DNA of 64,000 bases, taken from contig JAQTTU010000005.1 in NCBI GenBank assembly GCA_028710605.1, positions 1 through 64,000 on the forward strand, in the 5' to 3' direction. Positions 1 to 45,672 of this stretch are shown in pieces (position 1 is the first letter of the stretch; each line of letters begins with the position of its first letter). The notes under the pieces are model-generated. The model saw nothing but the letters and a program-made list of their open reading frames with translations, searched no databases and was not told the origin of the DNA. The stretch is from Sideroxydans sp. GTDB taxonomy: Bacteria; Pseudomonadota; Gammaproteobacteria; Burkholderiales; Gallionellaceae. A program made the position numbers and the translations under genes.

Positions 1-220
1 GACTTGAGGGTGAGAGTGTAATGGACGCGAGCCGGTTAAGGCGGGAAAGCGGTAGCCTTTGCCACAGCTTCCATGGTCTGACGCGGGTGATGGCTGTTGC
101 GGTGCAGGGCTTTCAGGCGTACTTCGATGTCCTGATATTGGTGCTCAATATAATTGCTTATGGCGAAGATCGGCGCGATCTGTGCATCGCGCTCGGCGGG
201 GAGGCGTTTAGTTCACTGAA

Positions 221-253
221 AAGAAGAAGCCCGGCAATGCCGGGCTTCTTCTT
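221..253. terminator. Rho-independent terminator-like hairpin downstream of the HEPN-STAND gene
   Basis: AAGAAGAAGCCCGGC-AAT-GCCGGGCTTCTTCTT perfect stem, A-tract/T-rich flanks, just past the stop of the minus-strand gene 313..3042. Confidence 0.8.
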
Positions 254-312
254 GGGAAGTATTGCGATGCTGAACCCTATATCACTCGAAGACCTGACAC
301 CTCGCCCTTCTG

Positions 313-3042
313 CTAAAGAATAATTACCTCAGTGGCTGGTACCGCTTTATTAGAATTGGCATTGGACTCAACTTGAACTGCTAGTTCAACCCCCTCTCTT
401 ATATTCAACCAGTCGGTCCATGTACCTTCAGATAAACAACTGAAGTGAACAAAATACTGTCCGTCCGTTGCATCTTTAGCGAAAACAAAAGGTGATTGTG
501 CTTTTGGTATGTGGTAAACGATAACGAACTTGTAGCCAGCATCTTTCAAGCTGAGCTTTTTGTCTGCGTCCACATATATCTGTCCCCCTCTACTTTTTAA
601 GTATTCTTGCCAAACGACATTTTGGAATGGGTTATCTTTAAGCGGGACTCTGCATAACTTCTTTGCAAACGACAAAATGCTCTCATTGCCATCCGCATCA
701 TCTTTAAAAACTTGATTGATGGTCTGGTCAACAAATTCCAGTAACTGTCTAGCTTGTTTTTGTTCTGCAAAGGTTTGAATTACCGATGTGTACGCGATTT
801 CTTCAATTACCTCTTTAAAAACTCCTCTAAAGAGTTCTGGGTAGCCGTAATGATTTAAGAGATCTTTCAAGATGACTGCTGATTTGTTAAGAGAAAAGCA
901 TCTCTTTAATAAATCCTGTTCATTTTCAATCGACCTCTTCCAAGCTCTGGCTCTAAAAGCACCCAAAATATCTTTAAGAAATTCGTTGCCTGCCCAATCC
1001 TGAGTCTCATCCAGAATCTTGTCATACCAACCTAAATAAAGCATCGCTATCAGATAGCCATTGCAGTGATATCTCATGTTCTCTACATCTGTGAACGAAG
1101 GATCCCATCCTCCCAACTCTTTAAGCATTAAATAGCAATCGTACGATAGCTGGTAATCGTGTAACTTCAAGGCAAGTCGACCTAACATTTTGAGTGCTTG
1201 CACATCTTGTGGTGATATTTCAATTGCTCGCTTTAGTTCTGTAACGGCACTACTGGAATCACCGAGTCTTTCGCTAATTTTTGCGATGTGTCTTGAAATT
1301 GCTGACACTGTGGCGTACTCATCTTTCAACTCTCTTAATCTTGAGAGAATCTGTAGTGCGTCTTCAGATGTGGCACGTTTACCCAGTTGATGTGTGATAC
1401 GAACGGTTTCAAAAAGTACATTTCTAACCACTTCTGGCAAATCAACTGCTACATAGTCCTCATGGTGTCTAGACATATTTCTCTGCCTTTGATCCGCATT
1501 ATTTATGCTGTCGCGCTGTTGAAGAATTCGGACCTGAATAGCTGACCTAAGTTGAGCATCCCGAGGATGCGCTAACAATAAATCTCGAACTGAGGGATAC
1601 AAGGAATGACGCTCCTGTTGCTTGCCACTATCTCTTGTAATCAGACTCGTCTTAGATAGTTCAAAAAGACCAGACGCGATCACATCTATGGTTGTCCCAA
1701 TGTTTTCCGCAAGTTCAATTCTGGTTTGGCTGTCTTGTAAGAACAAACACTCTAGTATTGAGATTGATTCTGGCGAAAGGACTTCCATTAGGTTTTTATA
1801 TGAGAAATTTAGAACCTCGCTCGCTGCCAGATTAATAGAGTCATCCAGTGGCTTGCCAAGCATATATGAATCAATACCCAACCGAATCGCAAGAGGGTTG
1901 CAGTGGGAGCGACAAACAATTCTTTCAACCGCATTATCTTCAACTAGTGCTGTAGCATTTCTTCGCGTTGCATAAATTCTGGCCAGATGCTTAGCTGTTG
2001 CCTCTTGTAGTGGGCCAATCGGGAGGCAGGTGGCTGAGTTTGTATTTACTCTACTTGTTGTAAGAATTCGCCAGTTCACAGGAAGTGACATTTGAAAGAC
2101 CTCGAATTCTTCTGGATTGTCGCGAAGTAGAGTTTCTAGGTTGTCAATAAACAGAAGTAATCTTCTGTCAGCAAATTCATCAAGTACTTCTGCGAAAGTT
2201 AATTCACCATCATCGCAGTCAATTACTCTGGGAATCATTTTGGCAAGTTGGTATTCGACCTCAGTGATTGTGGATGGAGCATCGAGCTTTACGACACCTG
2301 TTGCCGTTAGTTTTTCAAGTTTTAAAGAAAGAAAGATAACCGCCTCAAACAACTTATGAAACTCAGGTGATTTACATGCCTTGTCTAATACGTCAATAGC
2401 TAAAGCGGTTTTGCCAACCCCGCCTGGAGCAACTATGGAGATACAGTTGATTCTTTGGTTCACTAGAAAAGCGTGTAGATCTTTGCTTTCTTTTGGCCGC
2501 CCAATCAAGCCAGTAATTACAAAGTCATTGGTTGAGGGGAGATTGTTTGGCACTAACCATTCTGGCAAATTAATCCATTCCTCAGGGGGGATGCTTAACT
2601 TTCCTGCTAATGCCGCATCAAAACTATTCAATATTTCAACTAAGCCGAGTTGTTGAATTAATGGGTCTGAGGCAATTGCACCCATACGGTACCAATAGCA
2701 ATCAGGGAAAGGACGATTCGGGTGTGCAATAGCATTTCTGATTTCGTAGAGGCCAAGGGCGCTACAAAGATTCTTCAGCAATAACCACTGAGGATAATCC
2801 GAGGTGTTTTCTGCAATGCGAAGGGCCAGTTGAAATAAATCTTCTATGTAAGTCTCGGCAACCAAATCTCCCATTGAATTTACGACCAAACCTGGGCGTT
2901 TTAGCGATTCTCTTTGAATAATTGAATCAGCAATATCTCTAATGTGATCATCAATGTTAGGATTTCTTGATTGCACAACCGAACCCAGAGCCTGTTCCAA
3001 ACGAAACAGAACCATGGCGGACATCATTCGAAAATTATTCAA
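313..3042 (-). CDS. HEPN - STAND (NB-ARC-type) NTPase - TPR protein with cold-shock-like C-terminus; putative defence protein
   Basis: N-term EIRNAIAHPNRPF (RX4H HEPN motif); Walker A VAPGGVGKTALA; Walker B LLLFIDNLETLL; ILTTSR; CNPLAIRL; TPR-like AVTELKRAIEISPQDVQALKMLGRLALKL; C-term YFVHFSCL...IREGVELAVQVES. Start is TTG at 3042 or ATG at about 3027. Confidence 0.8.
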   Translation of the reverse strand: MNNFRMMSAMVLFRLEQALGSVVQSRNPNIDDHIRDIADSIIQRESLKRPGLVVNSMGDLVAETYIEDLFQLALRIAENTSDYPQWLLLKNLCSALGLYEIRNAIAHPNRPFPDCYWYRMGAIASDPLIQQLGLVEILNSFDAALAGKLSIPPEEWINLPEWLVPNNLPSTNDFVITGLIGRPKESKDLHAFLVNQRINCISIVAPGGVGKTALAIDVLDKACKSPEFHKLFEAVIFLSLKLEKLTATGVVKLDAPSTITEVEYQLAKMIPRVIDCDDGELTFAEVLDEFADRRLLLFIDNLETLLRDNPEEFEVFQMSLPVNWRILTTSRVNTNSATCLPIGPLQEATAKHLARIYATRRNATALVEDNAVERIVCRSHCNPLAIRLGIDSYMLGKPLDDSINLAASEVLNFSYKNLMEVLSPESISILECLFLQDSQTRIELAENIGTTIDVIASGLFELSKTSLITRDSGKQQERHSLYPSVRDLLLAHPRDAQLRSAIQVRILQQRDSINNADQRQRNMSRHHEDYVAVDLPEVVRNVLFETVRITHQLGKRATSEDALQILSRLRELKDEYATVSAISRHIAKISERLGDSSSAVTELKRAIEISPQDVQALKMLGRLALKLHDYQLSYDCYLMLKELGGWDPSFTDVENMRYHCNGYLIAMLYLGWYDKILDETQDWAGNEFLKDILGAFRARAWKRSIENEQDLLKRCFSLNKSAVILKDLLNHYGYPELFRGVFKEVIEEIAYTSVIQTFAEQKQARQLLEFVDQTINQVFKDDADGNESILSFAKKLCRVPLKDNPFQNVVWQEYLKSRGGQIYVDADKKLSLKDAGYKFVIVYHIPKAQSPFVFAKDATDGQYFVHFSCLSEGTWTDWLNIREGVELAVQVESNANSNKAVPATEVIIL

Positions 3043-3117
3043 GGTCAGATTCCTTTAAAAAAATGCAAATTAGCTTTCGTAAACCAATCAGGAGCAACTA
3101 CGGATTCTTTGCAGTCA

Positions 3118-3930
3118 TCACTTCACCCCCACCCCCAACCACGCATCCGAAGTCAGCGGCCCCTTCAGCGCAGGCAATGTCTCTTCCAACCAAGCCAGCG
3201 CCAGCTTTTCTTTCTCGCGCCACATCTCTTCGCCCAGTCCCTTTTTCATCATCTGAATCGGGGCGCTGCCCTTGACCATGTGCTCCCAGAATTCGCCAGT
3301 GCTGCCGACGGGGAAGGCTTTGGTGACGCTGCGGATTTCGATGTTGCGGAATCCGGCTTCTGCCATTTCTTGTTTGAAGCGCTCGGGGTTTTCCAGTGTG
3401 GTGACGGAGCGTTGCGGTTGCGGCAGGTCGGGTTTGATGGCGCGTAATGCGCCGAACATGGTTTGCATGGCGGGCGATTGGTCCACGGGTGCCCAACTGG
3501 TGATGGCGATGCTGCCGTCCGGTTTGAGGGTGCGGTAGATTTCGGCGAAGCCGCGTTGGCGGTCGGGGAAGAACATGAGGCCGAACAGCGAGAAGGCGGC
3601 ATCGAAGGTTGCGTCGGGATATGGCAGGGTTTGCGCGTCGCCGCAGTGCAGGGCGATGTTGCGGTGTCCGGCTTGTTCGATCTTTTTCTGGAACACGGCG
3701 AGCATGGATTCGGAGAAGTCGATGCCGTGTACTTGCTTTGCTTGGTGTGCGAGCCGCAACGCCAATGTACCCGGCCCGCAGGCGACATCGAGCACGGTGG
3801 AATGCGGTTTGAGTTTGCTGGCGGCAATGGCTTCGTCGGCGAATTGCTCGAACACGAGCATGGTGGTTTCGGCGTAGCCGTCGGCGACGAGGTTCCAGGG
3901 TTCGCTGGCGGAAAGCGGGTTGTTGCTCAT
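3118..3930 (-). CDS. Class I SAM-dependent methyltransferase (UbiE/Methyltransf_11-like)
   Basis: VLDVACGPGTLALRLAHQAKQVHGIDFSESML; start placed at MSNNPLSASEPW rather than the upstream repeat-derived extension. Confidence 0.85.
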   Translation of the reverse strand: MSNNPLSASEPWNLVADGYAETTMLVFEQFADEAIAASKLKPHSTVLDVACGPGTLALRLAHQAKQVHGIDFSESMLAVFQKKIEQAGHRNIALHCGDAQTLPYPDATFDAAFSLFGLMFFPDRQRGFAEIYRTLKPDGSIAITSWAPVDQSPAMQTMFGALRAIKPDLPQPQRSVTTLENPERFKQEMAEAGFRNIEIRSVTKAFPVGSTGEFWEHMVKGSAPIQMMKKGLGEEMWREKEKLALAWLEETLPALKGPLTSDAWLGVGVK

Positions 3931-4012
3931 GGAGTCTCCCCTCTCCCTAGCCCTCTCCCTGCAAGGGAGAGGGGATGGATGTTTAGTGCGTTCAGGTTGT
4001 TCGCTGGTTGTG

Positions 4013-4702
4013 TCATTTCTTTTCCCAAGGTGCAAAGCCGATGGGGCGTTTCTTTTTGGATTCAGGCGGGGACATCAATTCATGGATGGCTTCAAAGACT
4101 GCCTTGAAGCTGAATAATCCATTAGACCGAAAATCCGTCATACCGGCGAAGGCCGGTATCCAGATGATTGAAATATCCCACGCAAGTGGGACAACACCAA
4201 GGTTTGGCCGTACCTCGAAACTCGCCGCAGGCGGCTCGTTTTGTCCGCTACGCGGTGTATTTTTCTTGACTGGATTCCGGCTTTCGCCGGAATGACGGCC
4301 TTGGATGGCGCGCTCGCTGCGGAGGACGCTGGAGAGCATGGCTACGCCTTGTTCGGTGAAGGCGTAGGGGGCGTAACGGCGACCGCCGCGCCCGGCGCGT
4401 TTTTCGTTTGAGGTGACAATTTGTGACCTCAAGTTTGAGGTGCCATTTTGGAACCTCAAAGTTGCGAATTCCTCAGCCGAAAGCTGGAACATGAAATCAG
4501 CCGGGAAGCGTTCCAAATTGCGCTTGACCGCACGGTTCAACGCCTTGGTTTCCACCTCGTAAAGTGCGGCAAGGTCTTCGTCCAGCATGACCTTTTGCCC
4601 CCGAATCATGAACATCTTCGATTCGATCTGCGCTACTGATGCAGGTGGGTTCCGGCTGGCGGCGGGCGTGGGCGCAGGTTGTTCGCTGGTTGCGTGAGAC
4701 AA
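4013..4702 (-). CDS. ORF6N domain-containing protein interrupted in frame by a palindromic repeat element
   Basis: FMIRGQKVMLDEDLAALYEVETKALNRAVKRNLERFPADFMFQL...YAPYAFTEQGVAMLSSVLRSERAIQ then RHSGESRNP...WIPAFAGMT then FKAVFEAIHELMSPPESKKKRPIGF. Confidence 0.8.
   Translation of the reverse strand: MSHATSEQPAPTPAASRNPPASVAQIESKMFMIRGQKVMLDEDLAALYEVETKALNRAVKRNLERFPADFMFQLSAEEFATLRFQNGTSNLRSQIVTSNEKRAGRGGRRYAPYAFTEQGVAMLSSVLRSERAIQGRHSGESRNPVKKNTPRSGQNEPPAASFEVRPNLGVVPLAWDISIIWIPAFAGMTDFRSNGLFSFKAVFEAIHELMSPPESKKKRPIGFAPWEKK
4133..4300. repeat. HSGESRNP/AFAGMT-type palindromic repeat, copy 1 (inside ORF6N CDS)
   Basis: ccgtcataccggcgaaggccggtatccag ... ctggattccggctttcgccggaatgacgg; core tttgtccgctacgcgg. 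Confidence 0.85.
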
Positions 4703-5171: not shown

Positions 5172-5366
5172 CTACAAAACTGAAAAATGGTGCATTACTG
5201 TTTTAACGATTACCCGGTCTTCCAGCACCAGCACGGCGCACAGCAGGTTGTCGTGCCGTGAAGGAAATTCTGTGTACGCCCACAGGTGAGCTGCATCCTT
5301 GTAGCGTGTGTCGCCGGAATCGATCACTTCCAGCAACATCGCCTCGCTGATGTCGCGTTCGACCAT
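5172..5366 (-). CDS. DUF4258-like small protein (start uncertain)
   Basis: RMVERDISEAMLLEVIDSGDTRY...VIVKTVMHH; the open frame extends upstream to ISSHAKIRMVER without an ATG. Confidence 0.55.
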   Translation of the reverse strand: MVERDISEAMLLEVIDSGDTRYKDAAHLWAYTEFPSRHDNLLCAVLVLEDRVIVKTVMHHFSVL

Positions 5367-5520
5367 GCGAATTTTTGCATGGCTCGAAATGACGATGAGG
5401 CGTTAAAAGCGGTTGCTGAACATGGTTCGCTCTTCGGATGATGGACTCGGTTTCGTTGCTGAGTATAACGCCTTAGGCTATTTGATTCCCATCCCTAATC
5501 ACGCATGAAAATAAAACCCA

Positions 5521-7152: not shown

Positions 7153-7749
7153 TTACCGGGAGTCGGCTGCTGCCGCGCGCAGTTTTCGGCGTGCCAGCAG
7201 CCATGCTGTTGCGATCAGCAAATTGCTGGCGACGATCAGCGACTGGACGATTTCCCAGCCCGTCTGCGTCGCGTAATACGTCAGTCCGGCGGCGGGGAGT
7301 AGCATGAGGGCAACGACTCCGGCGGGCAGGGCGGCGAGGCGGACGTGGCGGGCAACCGGGGCGGTGCGCGGCGGAGCGGCGGGAATGCGCCCTCCCAGCA
7401 GTTGCAACGGGCGCTGGCTGGCATGATGCCAGACTTGCAATGTCAACAGAAACGGCGCGAGGAAGATGGCATATTGTGCCCAGCGCGGCAGCACCAGTGT
7501 CCCGCTCGCTTCCAGCAGTCCCAGCGCGATTCCCGCGCCGATTACCCAGTACACCGCGCCCCGCATCGAGTAGCGTTCCGAGCTGGCAAACTCCCCGATC
7601 AACAATTCCATTTCCGCGCGGGAACACGGCAAACCGCCCCCGTGTCCGTTCGGGTGAAAATAGATAAACGAGCCGTCATCCTGCGCTTCAAAACGCGCCG
7701 CAAATTGTGCGGCGCGGTTGCTGGCAACAATCAAATGTTCGAGAGCCAT
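7153..7749 (-). CDS. Hypothetical membrane protein
   Basis: MALEHLIVASNRAAQFAARFEAQDDG...; four hydrophobic segments. Confidence 0.65.
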   Translation of the reverse strand: MALEHLIVASNRAAQFAARFEAQDDGSFIYFHPNGHGGGLPCSRAEMELLIGEFASSERYSMRGAVYWVIGAGIALGLLEASGTLVLPRWAQYAIFLAPFLLTLQVWHHASQRPLQLLGGRIPAAPPRTAPVARHVRLAALPAGVVALMLLPAAGLTYYATQTGWEIVQSLIVASNLLIATAWLLARRKLRAAAADSR

Positions 7750-7849
7750 GGCGTATCAAGTCCTGTTTTATCCTTAAAAACTTAGTTGTCACAGAGGACA
7801 CAGAGATCGCAGAGGAGAAACAAATGGTCGTCGCGACTTAACACCCCAT

Positions 7850-7930
7850 CCCTACCCCAACCCTCCCCTTGAAGGGGAGGGAGCAAGATTCCTCCCCCTT
7901 CAAGGGGGAGGTTAGGTGGGGGATGGGGGT
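7850..7930. repeat. CCTCCCCTTGAAGGGGAGG palindromic repeat cluster
   Basis: ccctccccttgaaggggagggagcaagattcctcccccttcaagggggagg. Confidence 0.7.
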
Positions 7931-7954
7931 GTTTCATTTTGGTTCCGGCTTAGG

Positions 7955-8809
7955 TTAATACAGCACTTCCATCCAGCGCCCCGCCGCGATCAACTCGTCG
8001 CGCTTGGCTGTCCACGCCTCGGCTGATCCGGCGATGCGGCTCATTGTGTTGTCTATCATGTCATGCATTTGCTTCACGCCAGCCATATACACCTGGCTGT
8101 CCGGGCCGTTCACCATTTCCCAGACTTCTGCCGAATTTCGCTCCAGCACTTTGTCCAGCGCGATGGGTGCATCGAAGGCGGGGCGCGGGCTGAGTACCTG
8201 AAACGCTTTGAAAGTCGGCTGGTCGAAATAGTTGCCGATGTCGTTGTTGATGTCGTTCATGTACAGCGATTCCAGACCGGTGCGCGCACCGTGGAACAGC
8301 CGCACTTTGCCTTTCCAGTCGCCGTGTTTTTCGTAAATCATCCGCGCCAATCCTCGGAACGGCGCAACGCCCGTGCCCATGCCTATCATCAGCAGATCGG
8401 CGTTGGAATTTTTCGGGATGGTGAACGGGTAGCCGACCGGGCCGGAGAATTTGATTTCGTCGCCCGGCTTCAGGTCGCACAAATAGTTGGAGGCGACACC
8501 GGCAAATTCCTCGCCGCTGGCTTCGTCAATATCGAAACAGCGGCGCACGCAAATTTCGAACTGCGCGCCCGTGTCGGACTGCTCGGTGTCGGCGATGGAA
8601 TACAGCCGGGTGTGATGGGCGCTGCCGTATTCGCCGGGTGCCAGCACGCGAATGCAACTGCCTACCTGACTGTCGAAATATAGACTGTCCGTGCGAAAAA
8701 CCAGCTTCCTCACTTCCACTTTGGAAGTCTCCGGCGTGATGCGTTCCGAGCTGATGAGCTTCGCGCCAAAGATCATTGAATCGCCTGCGCCGTCTGTGAG
8801 TGAATTCAT
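7955..8809 (-). CDS. Ferredoxin--NADP(+) reductase-like flavoprotein
   Basis: HHTRLYSIAD; LMIGMGTGVAPFRGLARMIYE; C-terminal WMEVLY, typical of plant-type FNR. Confidence 0.88.
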   Translation of the reverse strand: MNSLTDGAGDSMIFGAKLISSERITPETSKVEVRKLVFRTDSLYFDSQVGSCIRVLAPGEYGSAHHTRLYSIADTEQSDTGAQFEICVRRCFDIDEASGEEFAGVASNYLCDLKPGDEIKFSGPVGYPFTIPKNSNADLLMIGMGTGVAPFRGLARMIYEKHGDWKGKVRLFHGARTGLESLYMNDINNDIGNYFDQPTFKAFQVLSPRPAFDAPIALDKVLERNSAEVWEMVNGPDSQVYMAGVKQMHDMIDNTMSRIAGSAEAWTAKRDELIAAGRWMEVLY

Positions 8810-8879
8810 GTTGGCCTCCGTTATTTGAATGTTCGTTGAACTGCATTACATTGCGGAAAAAACAAATCTTTCAATCTCA

Positions 8880-8985
8880 CATTCCCTCCCCCTTGCAGGG
8901 GGAGGGGTAGGGTGGGGGTAGAAGCGCAACCGTTCCACAACTCTACCCCCATCCTGGCCTTCCCCCTGCAAGGAGAAAGGAACTG
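8880..8985. repeat. CCTCCCCCTTGCAGGGGGAGG palindromic repeat
   Basis: ccctcccccttgcagggggaggggtagggtggggg ... cccccatcctggccttccccctgcaaggag. Confidence 0.7.
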
Positions 8986-8989
8986 GAAT

Positions 8990-10483
8990 TTACTTCACGC
9001 TCGTCACCGCTACCCGCGTCTTGGGCAAACCCTGCCCCAGAAAATATTGCTCGGCAACATTCACTGCGTCTTCCGGTCCGGCGATGTAGATGTCGCCTTG
9101 CAGCAGATTGCTGTCGGCTGCATTGATCGCAGCTAGCAGTTTCAACAATACCTCTTCGCGTTTGCCGGCCACCGTGCGCAGGTCGAATCCGGCGACGTGT
9201 TCTTCGTAGTGGAAATTATCCAGTGCATCATCCCATGCATGCGCGATGTTGGGCAGGTAAATGTTTTGCTGCGACGAGCCGACCCAGTGCAGGTGCAGCG
9301 TTTCCACGCCGAGCGACAGCGCGTGTTCGATCAGGCTTTTGACCGGGGCGAAGCCGCTGTCGAAGGCGAAGAAATAATACGGGCGCTCGGATTTTTCGTG
9401 CAGGATGAATTCGCCGTGCGGCCCTTCAATTTCCACCGCGTCATTCGTTTTGAGGTGCTCGAAAATATAATCGGAGAACAGGTTGCCGTGCTGGCGGTGG
9501 ATATGGAACAGCACGTTGCGGTCGTCGCAGGGGCAGCTGGCGATGGGCAGGTCGGCGCTGAAGGATTCGCCGACGCGCAGCATCACGCTTTGCCCGGCAA
9601 GGAAACGCAGGCGCTGGGTGCGCGGCGTTTGCAGGTGCAGCAGGAGCATGTCGTCGCTGATGTGCCCCATGGCTTTGACATGCGCGATGATCTGCTGGAA
9701 CGGAATGTCCTGCACGCTGTTCGCCACCGGCGCTTCGATCACCACATCGCTCACCGCCGTGTTGCTGCACAGCAGCACGTAGCCCTGATTTTTTTCCGCA
9801 TCGGAAATCACGAAATCGTGTTGCCGCGTTTTCTTCACTTCGCCCGACACCACGCGCGCTTTGCACAGCCCGCAATTGCCGCCGCTGCATCCGTAGTTGA
9901 GCGGGATGCCGGAACGCATCGCGGCTTCCAGCAGCGTATCGTGGCCTTCCACCAGAAAATCGTGCTTGCTCGGCAACACCGTCACTTGCGCGGTGATGAT
10001 GTGCAGCACCGTGTCCTTGATCGCCAGCGGATTGATGAAACCCGGTTCCATTGCTACCTCCACCTCGCGCGTGATCCATGTCTTGAGTTCATCCAGCGCC
10101 AAGCGCGATTGCTCGCCAGACCCGGATTGCATGGCGGAAAGTTTGTCCCACAGCCTGCCCAGCAACAGCGTGAAATGCTCGACTTGTTTTTCGCTGTAGG
10201 CCAGCGTCTTGCTGAGTTCGGTGAGGCGCGCGGCCAGCACTTCCGCGTCCGGCATGGCGCGCTCGAACACGCGCTTGCCGAACGCGCGCTCCTTGATCTG
10301 CGCGATGCGCCGCGACTCCGCGTTGTCTTCCAGTTGCGCGTCGGGATAACACGCCAGCAGGCTTTCGACGGAAATCATCCCGTCGTAAGCCACCATCTCG
10401 CCGCGCTGGATATGCTTCTGCAATTCCGCGCGCGTCGCGCCGATCAACTTCGCGGCGCGGGTCAGGCTTAACATTTCACTCAT
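8990..10483 (-). CDS. Helix-turn-helix-like N-term + 2Fe-2S ferredoxin + FAD/NAD oxidoreductase fusion
   Basis: SLTRAAKLIGATRAELQKHIQRGEMVAYDGMIS; YGCSGGNCGLCKARVVSGEV...LLCSNTA (2Fe-2S cysteines); FNR-like C-term. Confidence 0.82.
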   Translation of the reverse strand: MSEMLSLTRAAKLIGATRAELQKHIQRGEMVAYDGMISVESLLACYPDAQLEDNAESRRIAQIKERAFGKRVFERAMPDAEVLAARLTELSKTLAYSEKQVEHFTLLLGRLWDKLSAMQSGSGEQSRLALDELKTWITREVEVAMEPGFINPLAIKDTVLHIITAQVTVLPSKHDFLVEGHDTLLEAAMRSGIPLNYGCSGGNCGLCKARVVSGEVKKTRQHDFVISDAEKNQGYVLLCSNTAVSDVVIEAPVANSVQDIPFQQIIAHVKAMGHISDDMLLLHLQTPRTQRLRFLAGQSVMLRVGESFSADLPIASCPCDDRNVLFHIHRQHGNLFSDYIFEHLKTNDAVEIEGPHGEFILHEKSERPYYFFAFDSGFAPVKSLIEHALSLGVETLHLHWVGSSQQNIYLPNIAHAWDDALDNFHYEEHVAGFDLRTVAGKREEVLLKLLAAINAADSNLLQGDIYIAGPEDAVNVAEQYFLGQGLPKTRVAVTSVK

Positions 10484-34687: not shown

Positions 34688-35647
34688 CTAATCATCTTTC
34701 ATTGCTAAATGATAGTGATAACCACATAGCCCACCATAATTCTGATCGTCTGATCCAAGAGCTTCGTGACAACAGGCACATTCGTAATATGAAAGACATC
34801 CACCACAGGCTGCGCATAAGTCTTCTTGAATAATGAACGTTTCTTGGTCACACTCAGGGCAGGTACCAATCGGAGAATCGCCTCCATCCTTTACGGCTGA
34901 ATAGATTTCATAATCGAAGCACTCGCCAAGAGCCTCTTCAGCCATCTCGTCTAAGAAATTAACATGCCCACAAGACGAGCACGAAAATTCAATTGACTGG
35001 TATGGCTTTGTTTCGGGGGCAATTGGCTTTACTAATGCCGAGTGGCACTTTGAGCAACGTAGATAGCAAGCCATGGCAGACATGGCATCACTATTCCAGT
35101 CGATAGCATCTGTTGCATTCTTACACTCATCTAGCTCACGTTGGTACACCTCAGCTACTTCAAGAAGTGCGTTCCACGTGTCTTCGCCAAGCAAAATTAC
35201 TGGTTTATATCCAAGCTGACTTGATACGAAATTACTGATAATGATGAATGAGTCCGCTAATAGTTCCTTTAATCGGTCAGCGGATTCGGTTGTGCAGTAG
35301 TGTTCAATATCGTTTCTGATTGCGACAACTTTTTTAAATCGTTTCCAATCAGTTTGAATATTGAGAGAAGTGAATCGCTCCTCAATCTGAGCGACATCAA
35401 CAGTCTTTTTCCCATCACCTCGAAACACAACATTTCCGCTCGCGTCGAATTCTGGTTGAATTCTTTGCTTAATTAGAATCTCGTCAGAACCATCAGGAGA
35501 TAGTTCGCGCAGTTTTTCCTTAAAGAGAAGCAGTATCCCCGCAGTTATGTTTCGAATTGCGGATAGCGCTCTACGTGGATCGTTCGACTGGAAATCCTCG
35601 ATTCCAATTTGAATTGATTGAACTGCATTTGCAAGCACGGTATTCAT
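34688..35647 (-). CDS. HEPN-like domain protein with C-terminal zinc ribbons
   Basis: [12 protein letters not shown] (RNx3H); repeated CxxC clusters (CSKCHS, CSSCGH, CPECDQ, CAACGG); start placed at [10 protein letters not shown]. Confidence 0.65.
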
Positions 35648-35779
35648 GTAGGGGGGCTCATGTAATAGGGCAAAGTAATGTGGGTCAGGCCGCTTCTTTC
35701 CTCCAGTTTTGAGGTGGTCGCACGAAGGCACACATGATTTCGGTGTTGATGTGGATGGCGCGATCACTGCGCAACACGG

Positions 35780-44865: not shown

Positions 44866-45672
44866 CTATATATCAAGCTCTTCCTCGGAGAATTCGAATG
44901 GGACTGCCGTTAAAGCAAGCTGTTCTGGGACTGCGGACATTTGATAGAACTCAATTCCTGTGCAGTAGCGGAGAACTCTGATCACTGTCAGGGCATCGCG
45001 TCGTGGCATCCGCAGGCCAAAAGATATTGATAAGATACGTGCGTTTAGTCGATAGCTTCGAACTTCTGTGTCTGGCGAAGTTTTCCACATGCGAAGAAAA
45101 CGCCATTCTTTCTCGTAACTCCAACTCTTGGACTTGTACTTGAAAATATTCATGAGTATTTCCTTTCCATTACTGAAAAAATCAAGCCCGCGAAAGGTAG
45201 GTAATATTGGCTCATCGTATGAAACTCTTAGACAGCTGCCTGCACGAAGATCATTATCTTGCCTTCGCTCATACTCGATGCAGAACCCACGATGTCCATC
45301 GGCGTAATGAGCCCACATAAGCGGCTCAAAGGGTGTAGCAGACAAGCAAAAAGCCCCCGCATTTTGCACACCGTTTTCAAGTTCGGTAAGTATATTTTCG
45401 AAGTGCGGGCGCTCTTGTGGGATGTCCTCTAGCGTGTACCGTTTAGTGTCACCTCTATTTTCGGCACAAAAATTCAGATGGTTCAGCAACTCCTCGTCAC
45501 TATGCAATCTATCAATGTAAAACCGACAGTCGAAGGGATCGTTGAAGCTCTCTGGAATTGCCAACCAGATTTTGTTGTCAATGAGAGACTGCATAGCCCT
45601 ATGGTCGAACGCGCGATATTTGAATAGCGTGCGTGGATTTTCTAAATCAATTTCCAACTCAGAACTGTACAT
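44866..45672 (-). CDS. DUF2971 domain-containing protein
   Basis: LFKYRAFDHRAMQSLIDNKIWLAIPESFNDPFDCRF...FCLSATPFEPLMWAHYADGHRGFCIEYE...YEKEWRFLR. Confidence 0.88.
   Translation of the reverse strand: MYSSELEIDLENPRTLFKYRAFDHRAMQSLIDNKIWLAIPESFNDPFDCRFYIDRLHSDEELLNHLNFCAENRGDTKRYTLEDIPQERPHFENILTELENGVQNAGAFCLSATPFEPLMWAHYADGHRGFCIEYERRQDNDLRAGSCLRVSYDEPILPTFRGLDFFSNGKEILMNIFKYKSKSWSYEKEWRFLRMWKTSPDTEVRSYRLNARILSISFGLRMPRRDALTVIRVLRYCTGIEFYQMSAVPEQLALTAVPFEFSEEELDI

Follow-up and report, generated by a model that had tools for sequence, protein, structure and literature searches.

Proteins that join an N-terminal HEPN domain to a STAND NTPase have been on record since the 2013 catalogue of Anantharaman et al., in which HEPN domains, mostly active, were listed with "STAND-ATPase, TPR, S1" and the combination of an N-terminal HEPN, a STAND module and a C-terminal cold-shock-like OB domain was noted (PMC3710099). 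Examples with the order HEPN (Swt1/Abi2 group)-STAND-TPR-S1/cold-shock are Npun_F6454, MED222_16016, Desac_1927 and a Bacillus cereus protein, gi:229028907 (PMC3710099). No experimental test of this architecture was found in the openly accessible literature. A TIR-STAND-TPR antiphage protein of P4 satellites (PMC9122126) shares the single-gene effector-STAND-TPR design and is also hotspot cargo, but its effector is a TIR NADase and not a HEPN RNase, and the available portion of that source describes no cold-shock tail.

The gene described here lies at one end of a 64-kb stretch of DNA, which we refer to as the window. Its product has the same domain order and N-terminal Rx4H HEPN as the 2013 proteins (PMC3710099), to which it was likened from their description, whereas its own clade is set apart by the motif RNAxxHPNRPF, a divergent cold-shock domain and a new genomic slot. 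The architecture was already known in 2013, and the window gene is a new member of it in a slot that is new. Based on the anatomy of the protein and its genomic context, we infer that it probably acts alone, as an NLR-like protein that counters phages by abortive infection and has a HEPN RNase as effector. It is an intact, one-gene and testable example of an NLR-like family that was predicted in 2013 and extends across at least seven phyla.

The 909-residue protein and its domains

The gene and the parts of its product are as follows.

313..3042, minus strand: HEPN-STAND(NB-ARC)-TPR-cold-shock ORF, 909 aa, TTG start (sequence and relatives)
3051..3056, minus strand: ribosome-binding site AAAGGA (sequence)
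2569..3042, minus strand: N-terminal helical domain, predicted HEPN (Swt1-like), residues 1-158 (AF2 pLDDT 94.7; relatives matching Pfam HEPN_Swt1)
2722..2739, minus strand: RNAIAH (R102-H107) at a helix end, predicted active site of the HEPN RNase (R/N/H 37/37)
1843..2523, minus strand: STAND AP-ATPase/NB-ARC core, residues ~174-400 (profile and fold matches)
2407..2424, minus strand: Walker A GGVGKT, residues 207-212 (G208, G210 and K211 37/37; T212 35/37)
2134..2160, minus strand: Walker B LLLFIDNLE, residues 295-303 (D300, N301 and E303 37/37)
2050..2061, minus strand: TTSR sensor motif, residues 328-331 (S330 and R331 37/37)
541..1434, minus strand: TPR-like helical repeat arm, residues ~537-834 (profile and model)
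316..540, minus strand: C-terminal cold-shock/OB-fold domain, residues ~835-909 (five-strand model, family profile and relatives)

The TTG start is supported by L002, a full-length relative with 62% identity from another genus of the same bacterial family, whose ATG sits at the matching residue.

The N-terminal HEPN that the earlier note had read from an Rx4H motif stood in part. The motif is present, the domain model is all-helical (in the model the N-terminus consists of this HEPN-like domain only), R102-H107 lies at the end of helix 98-106, the HEPN active-site motif having been described at a helix end (PMC3710099), and E16, R102, N103 and H107 show no variation among the 37 aligned relatives, the set from at least seven phyla on which the conservation counts in this report are based. 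What did not follow was a structural match: Foldseek, run with the HEPN-domain model against the PDB, returned nothing with E below 0.9, a result that neither proves nor refutes a HEPN fold, which is small and divergent; the HEPN alignment, searched as a profile against the PDB, had no match either. The Rx4H motif by itself is weak evidence and could be chance, occurring in 12% of shuffled N-termini; RNAIAH has the polar residue N103 directly after R102, and RNx3H occurred in 0.8%. Pfam HEPN_Swt1 was matched by 11 of the 37 whole relatives (E up to 0.1) and, when N-terminal domains were isolated, by 13 of 33 (best 2e-4), with others matching RiboL-PSP-HEPN or Abi_2. The window protein's own N-terminal domain had no Pfam HEPN match, and at the level of sequence its candidate HEPN is recognised only through these relatives; the N-terminal profile of its clade scored 92% in hhalign against that of clade B, a better-scoring HEPN clade. 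The RNase activity of the domain is predicted from what is known of HEPN families.

The switch and the arm behind it were as the earlier note had them. All the motifs it had named for an NB-ARC-type STAND core are in place, among them a GLPL-like NPLA at residues 382-385, the P383 of which is invariant or nearly so among the 37 relatives, and the TPR-like helices make up a repeat arm. For the window protein alone the profile scores are weak (TPR 8e-5, AAA_16 5e-4 and NB-ARC 0.0043, the last below the Pfam cut-off); among the relatives, 35 of 37 matched the NB-ARC profile at E up to 0.1 (best 2.2e-13), and TPR-family profiles were matched within the same limit. The full-length AF2 model (pLDDT 86.8; three plasmid-derived sequences were left out of its alignment) is apoptosome-like, its best structural matches being the APAF-1 apoptosome (E 5e-9), CED-4, plant NLR resistosomes, SAMD9 and EfAvs5; the PDB entries behind the APAF-1/CED-4 fold match are 5juy (E 5e-9) and 8jol (E 1.1e-7). 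A BFVD search gave only generic AAA/TPR matches.

The C-terminal cold-shock/OB domain is a further module, of which the earlier note made no mention. Its modelled strands (838-844, 852-857, 862-866, 886-891 and 901-908) have the five-strand OB topology, and the family cold-shock profile matched CspA/CspB-type structures in the PDB at E 1.3e-10. The profile of the window clade itself was weak against the PDB (best E 0.1) and scored 70% against CspA and 95.5% against clade B in hhalign. Pfam CSD was found in 10 of the 37 relatives (E up to 0.1, best 1.8e-19); at the level of sequence, this predicted domain too is recognised in the window protein only by way of its kin. F854 is conserved in every one of the 37 aligned relatives; variation occurs at several of the aromatic/His positions that are canonical for CSDs. 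Three tandem cold-shock domains were seen by eye at the C-terminus of a relative in L053 (7491-10595). A subfamily of about 775 aa with HEPN-STAND-TPR (L025, L026, L027, L029, L046 and L087, one of them on a viral contig) has no recognisable CSD, so the domain is not essential to the design.

These features bear on a reading to which we give a minority chance, that of an RNA-sensing resistosome. Here RNA of a phage, or unusual RNA of the cell, would be bound by the CSD, which would itself belong to the trigger or would hand substrate to the HEPN, in the manner of the NTPase-TPR-OB half of SAMD9. The presence of the CSD with its invariant phenylalanine, the triplicated domain of L053 and the place of SAMD9 among the top structural matches are consistent with it; SAMD9 has an NTPase-TPR-cold-shock-like OB core (PMC5445408) and an N-terminal tRNase (PMC12331169). 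In L051, a distant relative with a comparable chassis, the N-terminus looks AlbA_2-like by eye, and an RNA-binding role has been proposed for the CSDs of CoCoNuT defence systems (PMC11090510). Against this, the CSD-less subfamily keeps the remainder of the architecture, and several of the canonical positions of the CSD are not conserved. Somewhat more doubtful again is the fuller proposal that the CSD recognises phage or infection-altered RNA, the AP-ATPase assembles into a wheel like that of the apoptosome, and tRNA or mRNA is cut by HEPN dimers brought together in clusters. If true, prokaryotes would have in this RNA-sensing, RNA-cutting resistosome a functional counterpart to SAMD9 that relies on another nuclease.

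A variable slot and a scattered family

Comparison with sister genomes placed the gene in a variable slot with the following landmarks.

3118..3963, minus strand: putative class I SAM methyltransferase-like gene, the conserved anchor of the slot
1..276, no strand: the other conserved flank, 91% to L106, with parts in L101, L102, L103 and L105; it starts at the contig edge
221..253, minus strand: intrinsic terminator hairpin (-29.6 kcal/mol, z -6.4) within the shared flank, common to L101, L105 and L106

In eight genomes of the same genus (L101-L108), homology ends at about 3082-3127, no more than about 40 bp from the stop codon of the methyltransferase gene, and different genes follow; the slot boundary is at window position 3098. 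The first cargo gene is co-directional with the methyltransferase and close to its stop in seven of the eight (L101-L106 and L108), and in L107 it is co-directional at a distance of 324 bp. Because the flank with its hairpin recurs directly after the cargo in L106, and in part in the four other genomes named above, the cargo seems to be bracketed by the methyltransferase gene on one side and a shared terminator on the other. In the window, the 909-aa gene is the only cargo. The "own terminator" that the earlier note had given the gene was therefore partly right: a strong hairpin does lie downstream, but it is part of a flank that other genomes also have at this locus (a simple consensus terminator scan did not list it). 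A promoter scan found no minus-strand sigma-70-type promoter for the ORF, so the gene may be transcribed from the methyltransferase side.

The cargo of the sister genomes, identified with PADLOC/Pfam, made the slot a defence-rich one.

L102: fused AriAB (PARIS), 1.9e-262, and a NERD-UvrD helicase
L106: PycC and PycTM (Pycsar; 2e-86, 1e-21), and DarT and NADAR-DarT1 (6e-18, 1e-87)
L105: LmuB-like ATPase (Lamassu-like, 4e-37) and a CTD9/ABC-3C esterase
L108: PDC-S46 (3e-232) and PDC-S73
L101: PDC-S01
L107: PD-Lambda-5_A-like
L104: Hp1/Hp2
L103: no PADLOC/Pfam defence identification

When the region upstream of the methyltransferase was scanned with PADLOC as a control, two genomes gave SoFic, and there were also matches to a KilA-like PDC-S05 and to SspA/DndA, the last on a cysteine desulfurase. 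Since this control was not clean, single PADLOC matches are of limited specificity, and the slot argument draws on the paired or strong full-length matches only. The methyltransferase-to-terminator slot is a place to seek further defence genes in the genus.

The methyltransferase gene recurs, as further copies or as 3' fragments, elsewhere in these loci of L099, L101, L104 and L108, in some of them beyond the cargo (e.g., window 3100-3237 is matched again in L104 at 5294-5430), which suggests that recombination between copies may move the cargo. Elsewhere in the window, an ORF of KilA/ORF6N type upstream of the methyltransferase (4016-4702, minus strand) matches PDC-S05 (3e-46), and the stretch RHSGESRNP...IPAFAGMT in its C-terminal part has the look of a dispersed repeat that has entered the reading frame. 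A 359-aa gene (34691-35767, minus strand) in a lower-G+C stretch (47%) matches the phage-defence candidate PDC-S64 (2.3e-56), and a 268-aa gene (44869-45672, minus strand) in or beside a low-G+C stretch (47%) matches the phage-defence candidate PDC-S31 (1.5e-56).

The relatives of the protein are mobile. Their tree mixes phyla, and in the order Burkholderiales they occur in 2 of 300 genomes, a patchy distribution; close homologues sit on Acinetobacter plasmids, more distant ones on two viral contigs, and by eye integrases lie beside L008, L012 and L017 and DNA methyltransferase genes near L011 and L021. No recurring partner gene was found in the neighbourhoods of relatives, and a phage collection contained no relative. 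One STAND-TPR relative (L051, Anaerolineae, ORF 7353-9704) has by eye an AlbA_2/Schlafen-type N-terminus in place of the HEPN, recalling the tRNase domain of SAMD9. A role in plasmid conflict instead, in which the same switch and RNase would work against plasmids or for addiction and would respond to a plasmid, to another mobile element or to the loss of a partner, is unlikely, though not far-fetched; the residence of relatives on viral contigs and on small Acinetobacter plasmids, there adjoining a toxin-antitoxin pair, would fit such a role, but an antitoxin-like neighbour is not conserved among the relatives and most of what fills the slot in the sister genomes belongs to known or candidate antiphage systems.

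Less probable still is a signalling or regulatory STAND-TPR protein with a non-catalytic, RNA-binding HEPN (acting, e.g., in growth or stress control). The RNase role of the HEPN is a predicted one and some HEPN families are inactive (PMC3710099), but the active-site R, N and H and the upstream acidic residue vary in none of the relatives, and the patchy distribution is that of an accessory gene.

The G+C content of the ORF is 41.4%, against 57.8% for the remaining window taken as baseline, some 6.9 sd under other 2.7-kb stretches, which bears out the remark in the earlier note that the gene is much more AT-rich than its neighbours. Defence genes are typically low in relative G+C (PMC13092281). 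The gene is horizontally acquired, and a paralogue search of the source genome found no second copy of the protein. A decayed or non-functional acquired ORF can practically be set aside, as the low G+C, the contig edge and the single copy are outweighed by an intact 909-codon frame with ribosome-binding site and terminator, by the retention of all motifs and by the full-length 62% relative elsewhere in the same family.

Proposed mechanism and comparison with known systems

That the gene encodes a self-contained HEPN-STAND-TPR defence protein, as had been proposed, is thus favoured by its domains, the lack of a conserved partner gene, the cargo slot of the sister genomes and the G+C content. 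Where the proposal had pointed to a PADLOC check for known defence systems, the window protein matched no model at E up to 1 (Avs, bNACHT, etc.), and relatives matched PADLOC part-domains only, i.e., CSD_V, the mad8 ATPase and the HEPN region of PDC-M34B. Membership of MADS was rejected, the mad8 matches spanning only the ATPase core and arising on unrelated ATPases as well.

For an antiphage protein of this kind, family precedents for the RNase, the trigger and cell death would suggest the following course. At rest, the AP-ATPase/STAND module would be held off by the winged-helix and TPR arm. This arm, perhaps together with the C-terminal cold-shock domain, would sense a ligand that comes from the phage or is altered by infection, and ATP-dependent oligomerisation would then gather the N-terminal HEPN domains, which could dimerise and cut RNA through R102/N103/H107. 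Cleavage of RNA would bring translation and phage growth to a stop, probably at the cell's cost.

Several immune proteins are built along comparable lines. AVAST type 5/Avs5 (PMC12931631; PDB 9jap, 9nc9) shares the STAND switch and C-terminal repeat sensor and is among the structural matches, but it has a SIR2 effector and a different sensor, and the window protein has no PADLOC Avs match. The bNACHT proteins (PMC12169576) share the tripartite effector-NTPase-sensor plan; they are of the NACHT clade with other effectors and C-termini, whereas the window NTPase is closer to NB-ARC/AP-ATPase. APAF-1, CED-4 and the plant NB-ARC NLRs, the best structural matches, have the AP-ATPase core in common with it and differ in their adaptor or TIR/CC N-termini and their WD40 or LRR sensors. 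SAMD9/SAMD9L (PMC5445408, PMC12331169) shares the STAND NTPase-TPR-cold-shock-like OB core, an N-terminal RNase effector and a structural match, but has an AlbA_2 tRNase and SIR2-like regions and is without a HEPN. As the NTPase-TPR-OB half of the window protein matches that of the human antiviral SAMD9, it could show how such a receptor switches on an RNase. In its plan, in which a probable RNA-cutting domain is joined to a switch of apoptosome type, an arm of repeats and a tail of RNA-binding type, the window protein resembles the immune receptors of animals or plants.
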